Of a stretch of 53,482 nucleotides of DNA, positions 18,988-50,758 are shown piece by piece. The translations under genes and the position numbers were made by a program. The stretch's first letter is position 1; every line of letters begins with the position of its first letter. Below the pieces are notes generated by a model. It worked only from the letters and a program-made list of their open reading frames with translations, was not told the DNA's origin and ran no database searches. Source of the stretch: a virus; IMG/VR virus record IMGVR_UViG_3300022918_000002, positions 1-53,482 of that record. One strand, given 5' to 3'.

Positions 18988-19017
18988 AATAATATGATTT
19001 TAATTAAATGTTTACTT

Positions 19018-19118
19018 AACAAAAAAAGCCACCTAATGCAGTATAAATGCAAAAGATGGCTTAAAAGTCTTTACGTGTTTTGTTGAGTGCTATGCATCTT
19101 TACATAGTTTATTTACAG
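19018..19118 (-). ncRNA. structured leader RNA before the capsid operon (variant copy D)
   Basis: Starts right after a TATATTTG box and ends in a Rho-independent terminator (stem 19055-19062 with 19026-19033, then seven U). It has a 5' hairpin (19103-19107 with 19090-19094) and the linker 'ACGTAAAGACTTTTAAG' related to that of copies B and C. The 5' hairpin loop (19095-19101) is complementary over 7 nt to 19052-19058, but here the partner overlaps the 5' arm of the terminator, so pairing would compete with termination. Confidence 0.6.
19021..19062 (-). terminator. Rho-independent terminator in the leader between portal and scaffold genes
   Basis: On the minus strand AAGCCATC pairs with GGTGGCTT (8 bp, one G-U), followed by a run of T. 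It lies downstream of the promoter at 19119 and upstream of the scaffold start, so it would stop most transcripts before the capsid genes unless read through. Confidence 0.75.
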
Positions 19119-19148
19119 CAAATATAGTTATTTTTTATTCAGTTTCAA
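19119..19148 (-). promoter_or_regulatory. Bacteroidetes-type promoter for the head genes
   Basis: On the minus strand TTG (19146-19148), 19 nt, TATATTTG (19119-19126). This is the Bacteroidetes -33/-7 consensus with ideal spacing. It overlaps the end of the portal gene and would start the leader RNA and the scaffold-capsid transcript. Confidence 0.75.
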
Positions 19149-33777: not shown

Positions 33778-34887
33778 TTAACCCTTTATGTGGTGAATAA
33801 CCTTATCCAATAACTGATTTACGTCAGAATACATTTTTTTGTTTTTATTGGATTTAAATACATATTTAGTTTTTAAACTCTCTAAATCTGAAAGCAAATC
33901 TTTTACTTTTGCAGCATCGCCTTTGCTTAATTCTTTCTCAATAGCGGCTTTTTCTTCTTCTAAAGATTTCTGTTCAGCTTCTTTTTTATCGCTTAACTCC
34001 TTTTCAGCGGCAATACGCTTTCTTTCGTTTTCCTCAAATTCTTTGCGTTCAGCTTCTTTCCTATCAGCTTCATCTTTCCTTTGTTGTATCTCGTAAGCCC
34101 AATGGTCTTCAGCTCCTTTTTTAATATCTGAAAGTTCATTTTGATAATCAATTTCCTGCTTTTCAATAAGCGCATTGTAGTCTCTTATGAAAACTATATA
34201 AGGCTGTAATTCCTTACTTCTATTTGACCTTATTATGGCTTTTTGTTCGTTTTCTTTCATTAAACGTTCATTTTCTGCCTGTATTCTTTGACGTTCTTCG
34301 TCATCGGCTTTTTGTTTTGCAATTCGCGCTTCTTCTTGTGCTTTTTCGGCTTCTATACGTGCCGCTTCTGCTTGTTCTTTAGCTATTTTATTAGCTTCAA
34401 ATGCCGCTTTTGCGCTTTGTAATTGCCCATTAAATTGTTCTTCTGACATTTCAGATAACGGCAGGAATGAAGTGTCAAATTCATAAGGTAAAAAAGCAGC
34501 TTCACGTTCTTTTTTTAATGATGCTTTTCTTTCGGCTTCAATACGTTCTTCGTGTCGTTCTATTTCACTGAGTTTTTCCTCCATTTGTTCAATTGGAGTA
34601 GTGAGTTTGTTTTTTAATGCATCAACAAATTTACCTGATGCTAAAAAGAATGCTTTTTCTGATTTGTGAACATCAGCTATGCCTGTTCTAACCTTAACAA
34701 GTTTTAGGCGTAATTCTCGCGCGGCTTTAAATCCATCTTTGTTTAATTCCATCGCCACAACATCTGCGTATTGCTGCGTAAATGCCGTTAACTCAATTTT
34801 CTTTGGTTCGAAAGATTTTTCAATACTTAAAGCTTTTGTTTCTTCAATTCCATACTCTTTTGGGTCAATAATGCTTAATTTTTCCAT
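33778..34887 (-). CDS. coiled-coil protein, DUF1351-like N-terminus
   Basis: 369 aa from the ATG at 34885-34887 (MEKLSIIDPKEYG). The reading from 34917 runs into the leader RNA terminator and is rejected. Residues 50-115 resemble DUF1351-type phage proteins, often encoded near recombination genes. Residues 110-340 are long Glu/Lys/Ala coiled coil. It heads the transcript that begins with leader RNA copy A. Confidence 0.65.
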   Translation of the reverse strand: MEKLSIIDPKEYGIEETKALSIEKSFEPKKIELTAFTQQYADVVAMELNKDGFKAARELRLKLVKVRTGIADVHKSEKAFFLASGKFVDALKNKLTTPIEQMEEKLSEIERHEERIEAERKASLKKEREAAFLPYEFDTSFLPLSEMSEEQFNGQLQSAKAAFEANKIAKEQAEAARIEAEKAQEEARIAKQKADDEERQRIQAENERLMKENEQKAIIRSNRSKELQPYIVFIRDYNALIEKQEIDYQNELSDIKKGAEDHWAYEIQQRKDEADRKEAERKEFEENERKRIAAEKELSDKKEAEQKSLEEEKAAIEKELSKGDAAKVKDLLSDLESLKTKYVFKSNKNKKMYSDVNQLLDKVIHHIKG

Positions 34888-34906: not shown

Positions 34907-35001
34907 AAAAAACCCATACTATCCGAATGCTTCTCACTTCATTCTTCAAATACGGGTTTTGTTACTTTTTACGTTGCTATAGTGTGAGAAGGCAACAGAT
35001 A
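34907..35001 (-). ncRNA. pseudoknotted leader RNA, copy A
   Basis: Starts just after a TATATTTG box. The 5' hairpin GTTGC/GCAAC (34992-34996 with 34973-34977) has loop positions 34984-34991 perfectly complementary (8 bp) to 34930-34937 inside the loop of the terminator hairpin (arms 34951-34960 and 34911-34918, followed by a T run). The linker reads ACGTAAAAAGTAACAAAA. The terminator ends 20 nt before the ATG of the 369-aa gene. The fold is read from sequence; function is inferred. Confidence 0.75.
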
Positions 35002-35009
35002 CAAATATA
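35002..35009 (-). promoter_or_regulatory. promoter box of leader RNA A
   Basis: TATATTTG on the minus strand, 6-7 nt upstream of the probable RNA start. A TTG lies 16 nt further upstream (35026-35028 region), slightly close for a -33 element. Confidence 0.6.
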
Positions 35010-35860: not shown

Positions 35861-36505
35861 TTAAAATATAGTTAATTGTTGTTGATGTTGTTTAAGGCGT
35901 TTTAAAGCGCTTTCATAATAATCTTTATCCAATTCACACGCGGTCAATTCAAAGCCTAAATTATGGCATGCAATAGCAATACTGCCGCTTCCTAAATGCG
36001 TATCTAATATCTTGTCTCCATTTTCAGCGTAATTCATAAGCAACCACTCGTAAAGTTTTACCGGTTTTTGTGTGGGATGGATTCTAACCTCTTTATCTTT
36101 CATATTTCCTTGTAGCATCCCATTCCACATAAAAGTAAATTTATCTACTATAACACCAAATGAATGACTGGCCAATTCACATTTTGAAAATGTACTACTT
36201 TCATTTTGCTTATCCCAAACTATCCTTCCGACATTAGGTATATATTTAGCGTAATAATTGCACCCCCAAATTATTTGATGCTTGCTTACCCTGAATAATT
36301 CATTAAAATAAACCTCATTAGGGACTTCCCAATTTTGTATTTTTTTAGTTTGTCTTCTTACTCCAGATGTGGATATATCATTACCTGTGTAATTGGCTTT
36401 ACCATAATCTTCGAAGTAAGGTGGGTCTGCAATTGCTAAATCGAAATACTTATCTGGATAACGAGCCATTAAATCCATGTTATCCTCGTTTGTTATTTGT
36501 ATCAT
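35861..36505 (-). CDS. DNA methyltransferase, DPPY type (copy 1)
   Basis: 214 aa. The catalytic DPPY is at residues 27-30 and the SAM-binding 'LDTHLGSGS' near 167-176, so motif order is that of beta-class amino-methyltransferases (N6-adenine or N4-cytosine). The ends are almost identical to copy 2 at 37415-38056, while the middle (target recognition region) differs. Likely protects phage DNA from restriction. Confidence 0.9.
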   Translation of the reverse strand: MIQITNEDNMDLMARYPDKYFDLAIADPPYFEDYGKANYTGNDISTSGVRRQTKKIQNWEVPNEVYFNELFRVSKHQIIWGCNYYAKYIPNVGRIVWDKQNESSTFSKCELASHSFGVIVDKFTFMWNGMLQGNMKDKEVRIHPTQKPVKLYEWLLMNYAENGDKILDTHLGSGSIAIACHNLGFELTACELDKDYYESALKRLKQHQQQLTIF

Positions 36506-36509
36506 TTTT

Positions 36510-37412
36510 TTAAGGTTTTGTAAATACTTCTACAGTAGTTGTTTTTTTTACGGGTTTATCTTCTTTTACCGGCTCATAATCTTGCATTACATAAGGTAAT
36601 CTTTCATCGTTTACATTTAATCCAAAGGTTTTAAATTTCTTTCCGCGTGAACGTTGGCATATGACTTCTGAATAATCTCCCATATCTTTTACTATAAGCA
36701 CGGTTTCGCACTTCTGCTGCAATATTGTGCCCAAATGCCCCCTTGCTTTGTCGCTTCCTGGATTTAAGTGTAATACTCCAGTTATGTGGCAATTTGACAA
36801 AGTATTATATTTCATTAACTTTTGTGTAAAAGCTACGCATTCAGTTAAAGAATTAAAATCATTAAGGAAATCAACGTAACCATCAAGTGACACAATGCCT
36901 AATTTATCTTTATAAGGACTTTTAGTAAATAGCCAATCTAAATATGCCATTCGTTCCGATGCACTGTATTCACGTAATTTCACTGCAATGTAATAACTAT
37001 GTATTCCTCCTACTGCCCGCCTTATACGGTCTGCTGTATTCCAACTGTCGTGTTCATCCTGTTCGGTGTCAATATCAATAATGTACTTACCGGCTAAATC
37101 ATGACCTCTTATATCAGGTGCGTATAAATTTGCAGTACCTCCAATTGCACACGCTAAAATCAAACTCTTTGCCCATGTCTTACGGCTTTTCTCCTCCCCT
37201 TTAATCATTGATATGTTTCCAAAAGTTCCAAATCTTAAAGGGTATTGTATTCCGTTGTAAAACCTGTCATCTAATCCTATTGAAATAGCTAATGGTGGCC
37301 TTTTGGGTTTTGTGTTTAAATCAACTGTGCTTTTTTTATGTACATCAGCATAATCTAATTCTTTAGGATCATCTTTTAATGCTAAATCCGGTGTTATTTT
37401 TTGTATTGCCAT
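36510..37412 (-). CDS. RepA/RecA-like ATPase with altered Walker A
   Basis: 300 aa. The nucleotide-binding loop at about 72-79 reads GEEKSRKT, with Arg in place of the usual Gly before Lys. A Walker B-like 'LGIVSLDGYVDF' and a sensor-like 'CHITGVLHLNP' follow. Such AAA_25-type ATPases act as replication helicase or loader proteins in plasmids and phages. It lies between two methyltransferase copies. Confidence 0.75.
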   Translation of the reverse strand: MAIQKITPDLALKDDPKELDYADVHKKSTVDLNTKPKRPPLAISIGLDDRFYNGIQYPLRFGTFGNISMIKGEEKSRKTWAKSLILACAIGGTANLYAPDIRGHDLAGKYIIDIDTEQDEHDSWNTADRIRRAVGGIHSYYIAVKLREYSASERMAYLDWLFTKSPYKDKLGIVSLDGYVDFLNDFNSLTECVAFTQKLMKYNTLSNCHITGVLHLNPGSDKARGHLGTILQQKCETVLIVKDMGDYSEVICQRSRGKKFKTFGLNVNDERLPYVMQDYEPVKEDKPVKKTTTVEVFTKP

Positions 37413-37414
37413 AA

Positions 37415-38056
37415 TTAAAACATTGTTAATTGCTGTTGATGAATTTTAATGCGTTTACAAGCGGCATCGAAATAATCTTTGTCTAACTCACATGCAGTTA
37501 AATCAAACCCTAAATTATGGCACGCTATAGCTATTGATCCACTACCCAAATGCGTATCTAAAATTAGCTGATTAGGTTTGGCGTAATTCATGAGCAACCA
37601 TTCGTAAAGCTTAACAGGCTTTTGTGTTGGGTGTATTCTTTCCTTATACAATCCATCTTTTGCATTAGCTCCAACCCATCCAACCTTAAATGATCTTAAT
37701 GCACCTCCTTTAGAACTAAAAGCTAATTCTCCATCAGAAAAATCGTTTTCTCCTGTCCCCTTGTCCCAATATATCCAAGATGATATTGGAGGTAAAAACG
37801 GAGTCATGTGATTTGCTCCCCAAACAATCTGGTTTTTTGAAACCCTAAATAATTCATTAAAATAATTATTGTCAGGAGTTTTTAAGTCCCAATCAGAATT
37901 GCCTCTATTTATTTTTTTCTTTCCATTTCCTAAGGTCATTTTATTAGCCCCAATCCCATACGGAGGGTCTACTATAGCTAAGTCGAAATATTTATCAGGA
38001 TAACGAGCCATCAAAGCCATGTTATCTTCATTAGTAATTTTAATTTTATCTACCAT
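37415..38056 (-). CDS. DNA methyltransferase, DPPY type (copy 2)
   Basis: 213 aa from the ATG at 38054-38056 (MVDKIKITNEDNM), which aligns with the start of copy 1. DPPY at about 30-33 and the same 'LDTHLGSGSIAIACHNLGF' SAM block. The middle 'GNGKKKINRGNSDWDLKTPDNN' differs from copy 1, so DNA targets may differ. It arose by duplication with divergence of the recognition part. Confidence 0.9.
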   Translation of the reverse strand: MVDKIKITNEDNMALMARYPDKYFDLAIVDPPYGIGANKMTLGNGKKKINRGNSDWDLKTPDNNYFNELFRVSKNQIVWGANHMTPFLPPISSWIYWDKGTGENDFSDGELAFSSKGGALRSFKVGWVGANAKDGLYKERIHPTQKPVKLYEWLLMNYAKPNQLILDTHLGSGSIAIACHNLGFDLTACELDKDYFDAACKRIKIHQQQLTMF

Positions 38057-38057
38057 T

Positions 38058-38654
38058 TTAAATTTCATTATCTGTTAATGTTTTACATCCTTTATCCTCG
38101 TAATCTGCATAATGTTCACAGCAATGTAAATCATGCTCTTTATTTTCATATCTAACTAATAATTCAGATAAAAAGTTATTAAGTTTTTCCGTTATAGCTT
38201 CATTGCTAAACATATCTTCTTTCATGAATTTAGCAAAGCTGTCAGTAATTACAGGGTCTTTTGCCTTATCGCTATTTTCTTTGTAAACCTCCCTAAGTGT
38301 TTCTATACTTTGGGGCTTAACGGTATCTTTAAACTCGTAGTGATTAAAAAAATCATTAAGCCTAAACATATCCATATTTAATTTAAAACGCTCGTAATGC
38401 CCTTTTAAAGGCTCTTTAAGTATATTTTGTATTTCCTTTTCTGCCGTAATGTTTGAGCCTTCATAATGCAGTAAAAGCTGATTATAAACATACATAGTCA
38501 TTTTACAAAAATGGTGGTTACGCGCTAATCTTTCCTCTTTCACAAAATTTATCCAGTCTACAACTTCGTTAAAAGCATTAGCATCGGTTTGGTTAGGTTT
38601 GTTGCCTTTTGCTATTGTGTATGCAAGCCGGTTCATTGATTTTTCTATATTCAT
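38058..38654 (-). CDS. hypothetical protein of replication block
   Basis: 198 aa, helical and acidic; C-terminal cluster 'EHDLHCCEHYADYEDKGC' with four Cys and two His may bind metal. Its ATG overlaps the TGA of the C5-methyltransferase gene (ATGA). Family unknown. Confidence 0.6.
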   Translation of the reverse strand: MNIEKSMNRLAYTIAKGNKPNQTDANAFNEVVDWINFVKEERLARNHHFCKMTMYVYNQLLLHYEGSNITAEKEIQNILKEPLKGHYERFKLNMDMFRLNDFFNHYEFKDTVKPQSIETLREVYKENSDKAKDPVITDSFAKFMKEDMFSNEAITEKLNNFLSELLVRYENKEHDLHCCEHYADYEDKGCKTLTDNEI

Positions 38655-39385
38655 AGATTTGATTCTTTTTTATTTTCATAAGCTTCTATTGATTTAAATA
38701 TTGAATATGGTATTATAGGGCATACGGCGTTTCCTAAAGCGTGTAAAGCCAATTGTGTGGAAAACCCATAATTTGATTCACACAATGGGGGCAAGGTTTT
38801 CCGTTGAATAGCATTGATAACCCTATTTGTTTCCCATTCTCTACTCGCCTGGTAATTGCAGGTGTTTTGTATAATGTTCCTCGATCCCTGTTGTCCGATG
38901 CCATTGGGGTAGGCAATAACGTAAAGCCGCTCTCTTTCATGAGGTAATCCAAACGCTTCTGCCGTGAAACATTCCCATTCTGCATTGTACCCGATTTCGG
39001 AAAGGTCAAATAAGACTTTTTCAAATCCTTTTTTAAGGAGGTTTGGGCTATTTTCAATAACGACCCATTCAGGTCTAATTTCGTAAATAGCACGGTCGTA
39101 ATGTTCCCATAATCCGCTTCGTTCTCCCACAATTCCAACTGACTTAAAATTTGCTGCTGAAATATCTTGGCATGGGAATCCTCCTGTAATAATTTTAACT
39201 TTACCATTGTATTCTTTAAAATCAGTTGTTTTTATATCTCCATACTGTTTGCATTCAGGAAAATGTTTTTTTGTTATTGAATTGCAATAATCGCTTATTT
39301 CAACGCTTGCTACATTTTTCCAACCTAATTCGTGTGCTGCTATCTGAAAGCCGCCAATACCGTTAAATAAAGCGTAGTGCTTCAT
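38651..39385 (-). CDS. C5-cytosine DNA methyltransferase
   Basis: 244 aa. Motif I FNGIGGF (7-13), motif IV GGFPCQDIS with nucleophile Cys72, motif VI ENSP (111-114, normally ENV), motif VIII HERERLYVIAYP, motif X ALGNAVCP near the C-terminus. It is shorter than most because the target recognition domain is small. The third methyltransferase of the phage, probably for anti-restriction. Confidence 0.93.
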   Translation of the reverse strand: MKHYALFNGIGGFQIAAHELGWKNVASVEISDYCNSITKKHFPECKQYGDIKTTDFKEYNGKVKIITGGFPCQDISAANFKSVGIVGERSGLWEHYDRAIYEIRPEWVVIENSPNLLKKGFEKVLFDLSEIGYNAEWECFTAEAFGLPHERERLYVIAYPNGIGQQGSRNIIQNTCNYQASREWETNRVINAIQRKTLPPLCESNYGFSTQLALHALGNAVCPIIPYSIFKSIEAYENKKESNL

Positions 39386-39389
39386 AATT

Positions 39390-40154
39390 CTAAGTTTTAG
39401 ATGCCAATATCCTTGTTATGTTTTTTCGTAGGTTTGAAAGGCTTAAAACCGTTTTCTTCCAAAACAAATCATCATCGTTATTTAAGTAATCATAAGCAGC
39501 AACTAAGTTTTCAATACTTACACCATCGTTTTCTACCATAAGCCGTATTTCTGTAACGTAGCTTTTGTAAACTGCCTTTTCCTGGTGGTTAGTTGGTAGC
39601 TGTTTTTCTTTTAGATTTTTAATAAATACTTTTCTAAACTTATCAGCCATTACAAAGTACATTAATTCCTTTTCTGTAACTTCAATTTCGGTGTCTTTGT
39701 ATTTTAAATTATTACCTGAAATTGAAATATCGGACATCTTTATTTTTAATAAAGATATATATGGTTTATTATCTGGTATAGGTTGGCGATTTCTGTCTGT
39801 TCCATTTGCTAATTCTCGCTCCTCCATTTGCGGTTTTTCGCTAATGGTTGATTCTATTGGGATAGAGTACCATTTTGTACGGTCATAACCCTTTTTATTA
39901 TGGCTGCTAACTAATATTAATTTAGCCTTATGTAAATTTATTAAACAGGTCTTTATTTGGCTTTCAGTAAGCCATGTAAATTGCTCTGTAAAGGCTTTTA
40001 TACTATTAAAAGTCCAGTACTGCCCATCATGGAAATTAACCTTATTAGATCGATTAAAATCAACCCAATAATCAATGTTAGATAATATAATAGCGGCATC
40101 AGTTCCAACTAACTTAGCTATTTCAGGCTCGAATGTCATTTTAACTTTACTCAT
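39390..40154 (-). CDS. replication initiator-like protein (winged helix)
   Basis: 254 aa. The N-terminus is a winged-helix pattern (AAIILSNIDYWVDFN...QYWTFNSIKAFTEQFTWLTESQIKTCL...LHKAKLI), and the C-terminus has 'DLFWKKTVLSLSNLRKNITRIL', typical of phage replication proteins of the DnaD/RepO kind. It lies upstream of the methyltransferases and ATPase, consistent with a replication module. Confidence 0.75.
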   Translation of the reverse strand: MSKVKMTFEPEIAKLVGTDAAIILSNIDYWVDFNRSNKVNFHDGQYWTFNSIKAFTEQFTWLTESQIKTCLINLHKAKLILVSSHNKKGYDRTKWYSIPIESTISEKPQMEERELANGTDRNRQPIPDNKPYISLLKIKMSDISISGNNLKYKDTEIEVTEKELMYFVMADKFRKVFIKNLKEKQLPTNHQEKAVYKSYVTEIRLMVENDGVSIENLVAAYDYLNNDDDLFWKKTVLSLSNLRKNITRILASKT

Positions 40155-40161
40155 GATGCAG

Positions 40162-40764
40162 TTAATCTAAACCAAAATATAATTCCATGCTTAAATCTTC
40201 TGTATCGGCTTGTTTAAGAGCATCAATAAGCTTTCCTTTAGACTCTTTACACAAACCATATCCGTAAGAACGATAACGGTATGACCTTTCGAAAGTAGAT
40301 ACAGGAAATATCAACCCATCATCAATAACAAGCTTTTTATTTGTGAGGTCTTCAAAGAACGTATTAACAAAAATATTGTAATAAGTGATACCCTCTTTTT
40401 CGGAACGCTTTGCATAAGCATATTTGGTAATTGAAAAATCAAACCTTGATATAATTTCAACAGGTGTTCCATAAGTATGCCTTATAAGTTCGACCCTAAT
40501 GTTTGTAGTTTTATTTTTATAGCATTTTACATTCCTGTTTTCATAAGAAAAAAAATAATTATCATCCTTTTCAAAAACATTAATCGCTTCTATTAAATCT
40601 TTTTCAGATTGAAAAAACACATCAATATCTTTAATCTTTTGATTATTAAAAATGTTTTTGAAACATCCACCGGCAATAAAACCTTTATGCCCCTCCATGT
40701 AGTAATCCAAGAATCTTACTTTGTTAAATGATTCTTTTGGTCGTTCAATAAATTTAGTTTCCAT
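40162..40764 (-). CDS. nucleotidyltransferase-fold protein
   Basis: 200 aa. 'GFIAGGCFKNIFNNQKIKDIDVFFQ' contains the GG...DxD signature (DIDVF) of the nucleotidyltransferase superfamily. Such proteins occur in phages with unknown substrates (tRNA or nucleotides possible). It is the first gene after leader RNA B, with ATG only 7 nt from the end of the terminator. Confidence 0.75.
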   Translation of the reverse strand: METKFIERPKESFNKVRFLDYYMEGHKGFIAGGCFKNIFNNQKIKDIDVFFQSEKDLIEAINVFEKDDNYFFSYENRNVKCYKNKTTNIRVELIRHTYGTPVEIISRFDFSITKYAYAKRSEKEGITYYNIFVNTFFEDLTNKKLVIDDGLIFPVSTFERSYRYRSYGYGLCKESKGKLIDALKQADTEDLSMELYFGLD

Positions 40765-40770
40765 AAATAA

Positions 40771-40876
40771 AAAACAAAAGCCGAAAACGTCAAGGGATCC
40801 ACTCCTATCGGTTTACGGCTTGTTTAGGTTAAAGTGCAACCTATAATGTCTTAATGTAGGTGGATCTTCTACGAGA
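40771..40876 (-). ncRNA. pseudoknotted leader RNA, copy B
   Basis: Same plan as copy A. The 5' hairpin GTAG/CTAC (40869-40872 with 40856-40859) has loop positions 40860-40866 complementary (7 bp) to 40796-40802 in the terminator loop. An extra hairpin lies at 40826-40842. The terminator stem AAGCCG/CGGCTT (40816-40821 with 40778-40783) is followed by TTTTGTTTTTT. The linker ACATTAAGACATTATAGG is nearly the same as in copy C. Confidence 0.75.
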
Positions 40877-40884
40877 CAAATATA
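40877..40884 (-). promoter_or_regulatory. promoter box of leader RNA B
   Basis: TATATTTG on the minus strand, directly upstream of the hairpin start. No clear -33 TTG is seen, so activity may need a phage factor. Confidence 0.55.
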
Positions 40885-43403: not shown

Positions 43404-43952
43404 TTATTTTATTAAATGTTTCCAATGTGTATTATGTAGTATCCTGCCTATTGTTGATGTGTCAACATTATATTGTTCAGCAATAGACTTAATTGTTTTT
43501 GATTTGCCTATGGCGCGTATCTCTAAAACTTGTATTTCAGTTAATTTAGCGGCTGCATTTTTAGTTCCTTTGCATGATTTCATTAAATTATTTGAATGAG
43601 CATGATGGCTATTTTCTTTAGGTGTTACCCATTCGAGTTCAGTAACTCTGTTGTCATTCTTTATTCCTAATTTGTGATTAACTTCTGATTTTTTTTCAGG
43701 GTTTGGAATAAAAGCAATTGCAATTAACCTATGCAGTAAAAAACTATTACCACCATTCTTTTTGCTCAACCTTACTTGTAAATAACCATCTTTAGTTGTG
43801 CATGGTTTTAGAGGTCGTTCTTTGTAAAAATGATACTTATTATTTGGGGTTATAAATCTCCAATAACTAAGAGATTTAATATTACCTAAATTAGACACGG
43901 CATACAAACCCTCATAACCCACTACGTCTTTCCATTCTTCTATAATATCCAT
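43404..43952 (-). CDS. NUMOD4-HNH homing endonuclease
   Basis: 182 aa from ATG at 43950-43952 (MDIIEEWKDVVGYEGLYAV). NUMOD4 at 4-50, HNH at about 70-115 ('LLHRLIAIAFIPNP', 'VNHKLGIKNDNRVTELEWVT'), and a C-terminal HTH 'IKSIAEQYNVDTSTIGRIL'. A free-standing homing endonuclease. It is the first gene behind leader RNA C, with 9 nt between the T run and ATG. Confidence 0.88.
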   Translation of the reverse strand: MDIIEEWKDVVGYEGLYAVSNLGNIKSLSYWRFITPNNKYHFYKERPLKPCTTKDGYLQVRLSKKNGGNSFLLHRLIAIAFIPNPEKKSEVNHKLGIKNDNRVTELEWVTPKENSHHAHSNNLMKSCKGTKNAAAKLTEIQVLEIRAIGKSKTIKSIAEQYNVDTSTIGRILHNTHWKHLIK

Positions 43953-43961
43953 AATAAAAAT

Positions 43962-44061
43962 AAAAAGCCTACCATACTCCAAACGCATCTCAACTCGTTC
44001 TTTGTATAATAGGCTATAATGTCTTTAATGTTGCTTTAATTGAGATGCTGCAACCTTATAG
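43962..44061 (-). ncRNA. pseudoknotted leader RNA, copy C
   Basis: Best example of the family. The 5' hairpin GTTGC/GCAAC (44050-44054 with 44030-44034) has loop positions 44040-44048 perfectly complementary (9 bp) to 43985-43993 in the terminator loop. The terminator stem is AGCCTA/TAGGCT (44010-44015 with 43966-43971) followed by TTTTTATTTTT. The linker ACATTAAAGACATTATAGCC is shared with copy B. Confidence 0.8.
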
Positions 44062-44069
44062 CAAATATA
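44062..44069 (-). promoter_or_regulatory. promoter box of leader RNA C
   Basis: TATATTTG on the minus strand, 7 nt before the first hairpin; the upstream DNA is AT-rich without a clear TTG. Confidence 0.6.
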
Positions 44070-47603: not shown

Positions 47604-47633
47604 TTGCGTAATAATGTTTTTTATGTATATTTG
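47604..47633 (+). promoter_or_regulatory. Bacteroidetes-type promoter of the plus-strand operon
   Basis: TTG (47604-47606), 19 nt, TATATTTG (47626-47633). Ideal spacing; it starts leader RNA E and the six plus-strand genes. Confidence 0.75.
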
Positions 47634-47719
47634 TCGATGTAGAGTCGTCGCTACAATTAAAAACATTTTAAAATTTCCGCACATGAAGAGCCGACGACCT
47701 CTGATTGTGCGGATTTTTT
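47634..47719 (+). ncRNA. pseudoknotted leader RNA, copy E
   Basis: The 5' hairpin TGTAG/CTACA (47638-47642 with 47651-47655) has loop GTCGTCG (47644-47650) complementary over 7 bp to CGACGAC (47692-47698) in the loop of the terminator. The terminator stem is TCCGCAC/GTGCGGA (47676-47682 with 47707-47713) with six T. The linker ACAATTAAAAACATTTTA resembles that of the minus-strand copies. It ends 6 nt before the ATG of a 25-aa reading frame. Confidence 0.8.
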
Positions 47720-47725
47720 GCATTT

Positions 47726-47803
47726 ATGAAATCAGCAAGTGAGAATTATGCCGAGATATTAAAATCTCCTGAATGGCATAAAAAGAGATTTAAGTTGAAA
47801 TAA
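47726..47803 (+). CDS. 25-aa peptide, possible truncated HNH endonuclease start
   Basis: MKSASENYAEILKSPEWHKK and so on to KLK, stop TAA. The phrase 'LKSPEW.KKR' is typical of the start of HNH nucleases, and no HNH core follows. It could be the remnant of a homing gene or a leader peptide between the leader RNA and the operon. Confidence 0.45.
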   Translation: MKSASENYAEILKSPEWHKKRFKLK

Positions 47804-50447: not shown

Positions 50448-50450
50448 TTG

Positions 50451-50522
50451 AGCAGGATAAAGGATTCGAACCTTTATTAACAGGGTCGTAACCTGTGATT
50501 TTATCCATTAAACTAATCCTGC
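50451..50522 (-). tRNA. tRNA-Arg(ACG)
   Basis: Acceptor GCAGGAT/ATCCTGC, anticodon arm ACAGG-TTACGAC-CCTGT with anticodon ACG, T-loop GGTTCGAATCC. Complete cloverleaf; CCA is not encoded. Confidence 0.9.
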
Positions 50523-50526
50523 CTTT

Positions 50527-50601
50527 GGGTGTTATAAGAGGATCGAACTCTTATCACGGGATTCACAGTCCCGCCGCTTAACCATTTAGCGTAATAACAC
50601 C
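50527..50601 (-). tRNA. tRNA-His(GUG)
   Basis: Acceptor GGTGTTA/TAACACC, anticodon arm CGGGA-CTGTGAA-TCCCG with anticodon GTG, discriminator C as in His tRNAs. Confidence 0.9.
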
Positions 50602-50608
50602 ATTTTAG

Positions 50609-50680
50609 TTTCAGATAATGGATTCGAACCATTACAACGAAAGTCAAAGTTTCGTATGCTAACCGTTACATCAATCTGAA
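50609..50680 (-). tRNA. tRNA-Gln(UUG)
   Basis: Acceptor TTCAGAT/ATCTGAA, anticodon arm CGAAA-CTTTGAC-TTTCG with anticodon TTG, T-loop GGTTCGAATCC. Confidence 0.9.
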
Positions 50681-50685
50681 TTTAG

Positions 50686-50758
50686 TCGAAAGCGGAGGGT
50701 TCGAACCTCGACCTCCTCGTTCCAAGTGAGGGATGCACGCCATTACAACACGCTCTCG
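50686..50758 (-). tRNA. tRNA-Pro(UGG)
   Basis: Acceptor CGAGAGC/GCTTTCG, anticodon loop CTTGGAA with anticodon TGG, T-loop GGTTCGAACCC. One A-C mismatch in the anticodon stem and a weak D-stem, so it is the least regular of the four complete tRNAs. Confidence 0.8.

Follow-up and report, generated by a model that had tools for sequence, protein, structure and literature searches.

Four leader sequences in the 53,482-base virus record analyzed here (the window, whose genes include those for portal, terminase, tape-measure and endolysin proteins) belong to a family of phage leader RNAs in which the loop of a 5' hairpin (HP1) is perfectly complementary to, and predicted to kiss, the apical loop of the terminator hairpin (T) that follows it. 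We regard the leader RNA structure as close to certain, which cannot be said of its mechanism, and we rate the leaders as a new RNA family and as a new variant within the cis-acting terminator/attenuator kind. The original prediction of a new family of pseudoknotted phage leader RNAs is borne out by two-sided change in the pairing sequences, by recurrence across phages and by the lack of an Rfam match. The leader RNA, of roughly 90 letters, probably decides whether the adjacent gene is switched on, a function that is inferred and untested.

The four leaders had been said to follow one plan, and direct reading of the sequence agrees, with a -7 box, HP1, T and a start codon present in each of A, B, C and D. 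The order is the Bacteroidota -7 box TATATTTG, HP1 a few nucleotides on, an AT-rich linker, T with its U-run, and the start codon. The perfect HP1-loop/T-loop complement, predicted at 7 to 9 nt, measures 8 nt in A, 7 nt in B, 9 nt in C and 7 nt in D on direct reading. The features are as follows.

34907-35001, minus: leader A, class I, sequence read directly
35002..35009, minus: copy A, -7 promoter box, from sequence
34973..34996, minus: copy A, HP1 with GTTGC/GCAAC stem, 80 bits with model R1
34991-34984, minus: copy A, kissing strand a CTTCTCAC, in HP1
34910..34959, minus: copy A, terminator hairpin T, with kissing strand b GTGAGAAG at 34937-34930
33778..34887, minus: gene behind copy A, weak phrog_16469 match
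40771-40876, minus: leader B, class II, subclass IIb, sequence read directly
40877..40884, minus: copy B, -7 promoter box, from sequence
40856..40872, minus: copy B, HP1 with GTAG/CTAC stem, kissing strand a GATCCAC at 40866-40860
40826..40842, minus: copy B, extra linker hairpin AGGTT..AACCT, typical of subclass IIb
40778..40821, minus: copy B, terminator hairpin T, with kissing strand b GTGGATC at 40802-40796
40162..40764, minus: gene behind copy B, phrog_4400, with a weaker match to a nucleotidyltransferase family
43962-44061, minus: leader C, class I, sequence read directly
44062..44069 (read 44069-44062), minus: copy C, -7 promoter box TATATTTG, from sequence
44030..44054, minus: copy C, HP1 with GTTGC/GCAAC stem, from sequence, 47 bits with model R1
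44040..44048, minus: copy C, kissing strand a GCATCTCAA, HP1 loop, perfect complement of TTGAGATGC
43966..44015, minus: copy C, terminator hairpin T, then U-run; T alone -19.3 kcal/mol, z -5.8
43985..43993, minus: copy C, kissing strand b TTGAGATGC, T apical loop
43404..43952, minus: gene behind copy C, NUMOD4-HNH homing endonuclease, ATG at 43952, 14 nt past the start of the U-run
47634-47719, plus: leader D, class IIa, sequence read directly
47626..47633, plus: copy D, -7 promoter box, from sequence
47638..47655, plus: copy D, HP1 with TGTAG/CTACA stem, kissing strand a GTCGTCG at 47644-47650
47676..47713, plus: copy D, terminator hairpin T, then U-run, with kissing strand b CGACGAC at 47692-47698

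A longer in-frame reading of the gene behind copy A begins at 34917, inside T. Three DNA methyltransferase genes (window 35861-39385, minus) and a gene for a DnaD-like replication initiator (39390-40154) belong to the operon behind copy B. Behind copy D, the first ORF (window 47726-47803, plus) is just 25 aa long, MKSASENYAEILKSPEWHKKRFKLK; it is similar to the N-terminal part of HNH genes that follow other leaders (L177, L180) and is probably a truncated homing endonuclease. Elsewhere in the window lies a cluster of four tRNA genes (50450-50758, minus; Arg ACG, His GTG, Gln TTG, Pro TGG).

Leader classes and related sequences

The idea of a single shared family plan holds for the common architecture but not beyond it, as A and C form one class, B and D another, and B a subclass with an extra hairpin. 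Class I (A, C) is recognized by HP1, a perfect complement of ~8 nt in the apical loop of the adjacent terminator, a box 3 to 6 nt upstream and a start codon near the U-run. Its HP1 has a stem of ~5 bp and a loop of ~14 nt, with the kissing strand at the 5' side of the loop and a conserved ACANNATA at the 3' side; its T contains an internal loop AATGAA/GGATTT (a tandem G.A arrangement, as read from sequence) and an apical loop of AA plus 8 nt. Class II (D, B) has an HP1 loop of 8 to 9 nt that is nearly all taken by the 7-nt kiss, and D and B, the latter as IIb, both fit its form GTAG-A-7 nt-CTAC, in which every one of the 7 nt pairs with the T loop. The extra AGGTT/AACCT linker hairpin of subclass IIb recurs in the loci L298, L315, L333, L370, L379 and L384. 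Copy D reaches 87 bits with model R2 of class II and 24 bits with model R1 of class I, so that the two classes are recognizably related.

Most T stems of both classes carry a conserved internal loop with tandem G.A (UGA/GA), of a sequence like kink-turn or SECIS-like cores; it is a possible protein-binding site. Two further loci, L203:8507-8595 (minus) and L154:5314-5408 (minus), lie before primase genes; their 5' end is still complementary to the T loop over 8 nt, in the absence of a clear HP1 stem. The linker ACATTAAAGACATTATA, put forward as a shared motif, is close only in B and C, and it was discarded as a family signature, none of its 7 exact matches elsewhere in viral contigs (among the matches listed) being a leader.

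A fifth variant had been placed before the capsid genes. This capsid-side leader (window 18990-19126, minus) comprises a box, a 5' hairpin CTATG..CATAG and a terminator, and is 82% conserved in a close relative, G412. Its complementary run, however, lies in the terminator stem and not in the apical loop, and the copy (box 19126-19119, minus) was rejected as a fifth member, the seventh complement pair being broken in the relative's orthologous copy. Judged from its sequence, it is a different kind of promoter-terminator leader, without an apical-loop kiss. The same relative has an ortholog of the gene behind copy B and lacks the kissing leader there, which indicates that the leader is an optional module not fixed to the gene. 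Upstream of this ortholog (locus L421, around 8690, minus), a promoter box is followed ~10 nt on by a bare terminator and a small ORF.

Loop-loop complementarity and covariation

The kissing complement was recovered by scans of viral contigs whose patterns were blind to it and whose counts are lower bounds. Scanning for the box followed by a GTTGC/GCAAC hairpin gave 118 listed matches; in 33 of these the loop complement was exactly 8 nt long and stood at one place, against an expectation of 2.1 obtained by swapping HP1 loops and downstream regions between matches of that scan; the corresponding scan for the box and a GTAG/CTAC hairpin (the type of D and B) gave a 7- to 8-nt complement in 40 of 119 listed matches, with 2.8 expected. 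A pattern of class II hairpin and linker, from which the box was omitted, returned 31 distinct listed matches, 29 of them with a perfect 7-nt complement (expected ~0.002 per match), present as eight different sequences. All 29 of these had a U-run after the complement, a promoter box stood 4 to 5 nt upstream in 28 of the 31, and the two matches without the complement also lacked the rest of the architecture. For class I, 51 sequences served to build a covariance model with the kiss pairs left out; run on loci picked by the terminator motif alone, it gave 42 matches, every one with a perfect loop complement of at least 7 nt. The pattern scans are the cleaner test, since many training sequences are among those 42. 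A strict descriptor identified at least 141 distinct leader sequences with 68 different kissing sequences, compared with 12 false positives on reversed sequence at equal score.

Covariation had been offered as evidence for the structure, and we concur, as the kiss pairs rank among the strongest covarying ones and the loop-loop helix is kept through massive two-sided change. In class I the kiss helix is 94% paired and six of its eight pairs are changed on both sides; one pair occurs as G-C 28 and C-G 17 times, another as G-C 22, U-A 14, C-G 9 and A-U 3 times, and at the most variable kiss positions two-sided change is seen in 17 to 26 of the 51 sequences. The class II kiss is paired in 182 of 182 cells (100%), again with six of the seven pairs changed on both sides. 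These percentages are biased upward because the alignment members were chosen with the complement in view. The class I structure as a whole scores far above 500 shuffles and every slid version, and in an APC-corrected ranking over all columns of the 51 class I sequences, the top 13 consist of 12 model pairs (from HP1, T and the kiss) and one extension of T.

Among the column pairs of these 51 sequences no competing (antiterminator) helix covaries, which weighs against a classical attenuator or riboswitch with mutually exclusive helices. A possible alternative pairing in copy C, GCTATAA/TTATAGC, is not conserved. Stem cells contain G.U 68 times and A.C 10 times, which fits an RNA on the leader strand and opposes a function as single-stranded DNA.

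Promoters, terminators and phage distribution

The housekeeping sigma factor of Bacteroidota has the known -7 consensus TAnnTTTG; a -33 motif was not found in Flavobacterium johnsoniae (PMC7366714), and the leaders likewise have no more than a weak -33 signal. The box lies 3 to 6 nt before HP1 in 32 of 40 model matches, against a background of 1.7%, and from this fixed spacing the transcript should begin at HP1, a start that is inferred. TTTT follows T in 63 of 64 kiss-positive matches and in 29% of kiss-negative ones. The T hairpin alone folds with a median of -14.8 kcal/mol and ends with ~7 T in nine bases, from which we infer that it should terminate. On its own, HP1 is weak (-1.7 to -4.1 kcal/mol, compared with -9 to -12 for the kiss duplex) and so probably needs the kiss to persist.

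Of 107 leaders, about 90% have the start codon 5 to 30 nt past the U-run. On the upstream side, 91 of 114 leaders have the end of a same-strand ORF no more than 250 nt away, and 61 have one within 50 nt, so that the leader terminator is often the first stop signal for the upstream operon too. This placement between co-directional genes, with an upstream stop codon near, would suit passive insulation, in which an operon-boundary terminator is joined to a new promoter, unregulated, and the kiss merely stabilizes the mRNA 5' end or the hairpin. We consider this very unlikely: a terminator downstream of a new promoter would silence that promoter, and without a function of the kiss it is difficult to see why the pairing should be kept so strictly while its sequence changes.

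Replication functions and homing endonucleases are enriched among the genes downstream of leaders. The 101 first genes that were scanned include 22 HNH_3 and 21 NUMOD4 homing endonucleases, 14 DUF6291 members and 10 ResIII helicases, together with BT4734-like and Prim-Pol primases and DnaD, HTH_36 and Lin1244-type initiators. No trans-acting protein is common to nine leader-bearing phages that were compared, the nearest being a cluster of HNH endonucleases present in seven of them. The lack of a common protein suggests that host machinery or the RNA alone is at work.

Leader units recur in cultured phages of Flavobacteriia as well as in many phage contigs unrelated to one another; the search of other phages for the conserved architecture thus came out in favor of the prediction, with leaders in viral contigs and in cultured Flavobacterium, Cellulophaga and Tenacibaculum phages. 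In Cellulophaga phage phi18:3 the leader (67 bits) precedes gp007 and gp006, the latter a DnaD-like loader. A leader before a NUMOD4 endonuclease is carried by the Flavobacterium phages mumin6-1, hattifnatt9-1 and their relatives (three leaders in hattifnatt9-1), and the leader of Tenacibaculum phage Gundel_1 (78 bits) stands before an antirepressor gene. A motif scan of the GTDB contig collection listed 20 chance-like matches from mixed phyla, none of which was recovered by the kiss descriptor, and model R1 found nothing in seven of the matching genomes. Nor did it find anything in 395 Bacteroidota genomes, where only ~11 candidates were scored per genome, so that prophage copies are not excluded. 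Plasmids gave no leader match. None of the 4227 models of Rfam release 15 matched a leader at the gathering threshold in the window or in 15 leader-bearing loci, and no plausible family emerged for the leaders at E values up to 10. Searches of open papers turned up no account of the family; most subscription journals and preprints lay outside the search, and a listing as an unnamed motif remains possible.

Proposed control of termination

We favor, with about an even chance of being right and without expression data, the reading that the cis-encoded leader is a conditional intrinsic terminator (attenuator), its stop hairpin capped by the 5' hairpin and read-through setting the expression of the adjacent gene. 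Transcription would start at HP1, as inferred from the fixed box spacing. As the T region emerges, the HP1 loop would pair over 7 to 8 (up to 10) nt with the T apical loop, and in this way the 5' end of the RNA would cap and pre-organize the stop hairpin. The default for most transcripts would be to end after about 80 to 95 nt; leakage, or a condition or factor that blocks the kiss or the stop hairpin, would allow read-through into the adjacent replication, homing-endonuclease or other gene. What the analysis demonstrates of this is the layout of the unit, the covarying loop-loop helix, the coupling to a promoter, the U-run, the adjacent gene and the lack of any covarying helix that would compete. 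Termination at T, an increase rather than a decrease of termination through the kiss, and regulation of the process are inferences.

With no alternative helix covarying, this is not the usual two-state attenuator; kiss and stop hairpin belong to a single fold, which favors a cis-acting conditional terminator. Several points count against it: T looks strong enough without the kiss, so that a pro-termination role of the kiss is not obviously needed; there is no sign of regulated termination in the form of an antiterminator helix or of a trans-acting protein common to the nine phages; and a few members have no recognizable promoter box or HP1 stem. Purine-class riboswitches also place a tertiary loop-loop pairing in an mRNA leader with a terminator, but their loop sequences are conserved and ligand-linked and their terminator is a separate, mutually exclusive helix, whereas in the leaders the sequence of the kiss is free and the terminator lies inside the fold.

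The put RNA of HK022 acts through the beta' zinc-binding domain of RNA polymerase and renders the enzyme resistant to terminators at a distance. The leaders share with putL and putR of HK022 a short structured RNA at phage promoters, no dedicated phage protein and several sequence-different copies per genome. The put RNAs, about 70 nt long and built of two stem-loops, work without a phage protein, and putL comes just after PL (PMC9378689). We weighed whether the folded nascent leader could act as a put-like processive antiterminator by binding the elongating RNA polymerase, which would then read through the leader's own and later terminators and turn the operon on. The position directly behind phage promoters, the lack of an obligatory phage protein among those found and the several leaders per phage speak for such a role, which we nonetheless think unlikely. 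Every unit has its own terminator 80 to 95 nt downstream, often right behind an upstream gene, which fits an operon boundary better than a modifier of an early promoter, and some members are without their own promoter. The second hairpin of the leader is an intrinsic terminator whose loop pairs with that of the first, whereas put has no loop-loop pairing to a terminator, having two stem-loops with an RNA triplex but lacking its own terminator (PMC9378689); with a U-run after the second hairpin in 63 of 64 matches, the leaders do not meet the two-stem put fold.

A second rival makes the RNA itself the product, a stable phage sRNA of 80 to 95 nt with its 5' end locked to the terminator, produced in excess, with only a little mRNA arising from leaky termination, as in type III toxin-antitoxin operons. 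Such operons (PMC5086642) have the plan of promoter, pseudoknotted RNA, Rho-independent terminator and ORF that ToxIN, CptIN and AbiQ have in common with the leaders, and a 5' end tied to T would protect both ends of the RNA. The pseudoknot differs, however, in that it includes the terminator, and the downstream genes come from many mutually unrelated families. No ToxN/CptN/AbiQ-type toxin appears among the 101 downstream proteins in PADLOC or Pfam tallies, and the four leaders of the window contain no tandem antitoxin (direct) repeats. Since an sRNA would not need the strict adjacency of start codon and T, and some members are without a promoter box, we find this reading improbable.

A further possibility is feedback in trans, in which the terminated short RNA pairs with a nascent transcript (loop a with strand b) or forms dimers and so represses or immunizes, the differing kisses averting cross-talk within a phage. 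There are precedents: the replication attenuators of plasmids (pT181, pIP501) rely on pairing hairpin loops and a distinct antisense RNA, with a terminator just upstream of the replication-initiator gene, and the C4 antisense RNA of P1-like phages has its pairing site farther along the mRNA. The leaders resemble the former in the terminator ahead of a replication gene and the loop pairing, and differ in that no antisense partner or competing antiterminator helix is seen; they resemble C4 (RF01695) as phage leader RNAs with a loop complementarity that varies between phages and with one leader before an antirepressor gene (Gundel_1), and differ in that the pairing partner is their own terminator loop. 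No leader matches the RF01695 model, and we rejected identity with C4. The kissing sequences differ in all 11 pairs of leaders that share a contig, as trans feedback would have it, but these pairs are too few and mostly of different classes, an antisense transcript is not evident, and the intramolecular kiss should beat pairing in trans. We consider it quite doubtful that the leaders act in this way.

The conditional terminator, acting in cis, can be extended to an RNA-only gene switch of Flavobacteriia phages, in which a single kissing fold would gate host RNA polymerase into replication and homing genes and orthogonally coded copies would serve as an early-to-replication checkpoint; we offer this only tentatively. 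The leaders are a widespread, strongly covarying RNA family in phages of a major bacterial phylum, for which the searchable literature describes few phage regulatory RNAs. A terminator loop held by the 5' end of its own transcript, through a pairing that varies freely and without a competing helix, is an unusual design for termination control. With the cultured carriers mumin, hattifnatt, phi18:3 and Gundel_1 the leaders are directly testable, and swaps of the kissing strands would separate the contribution of structure from that of sequence.
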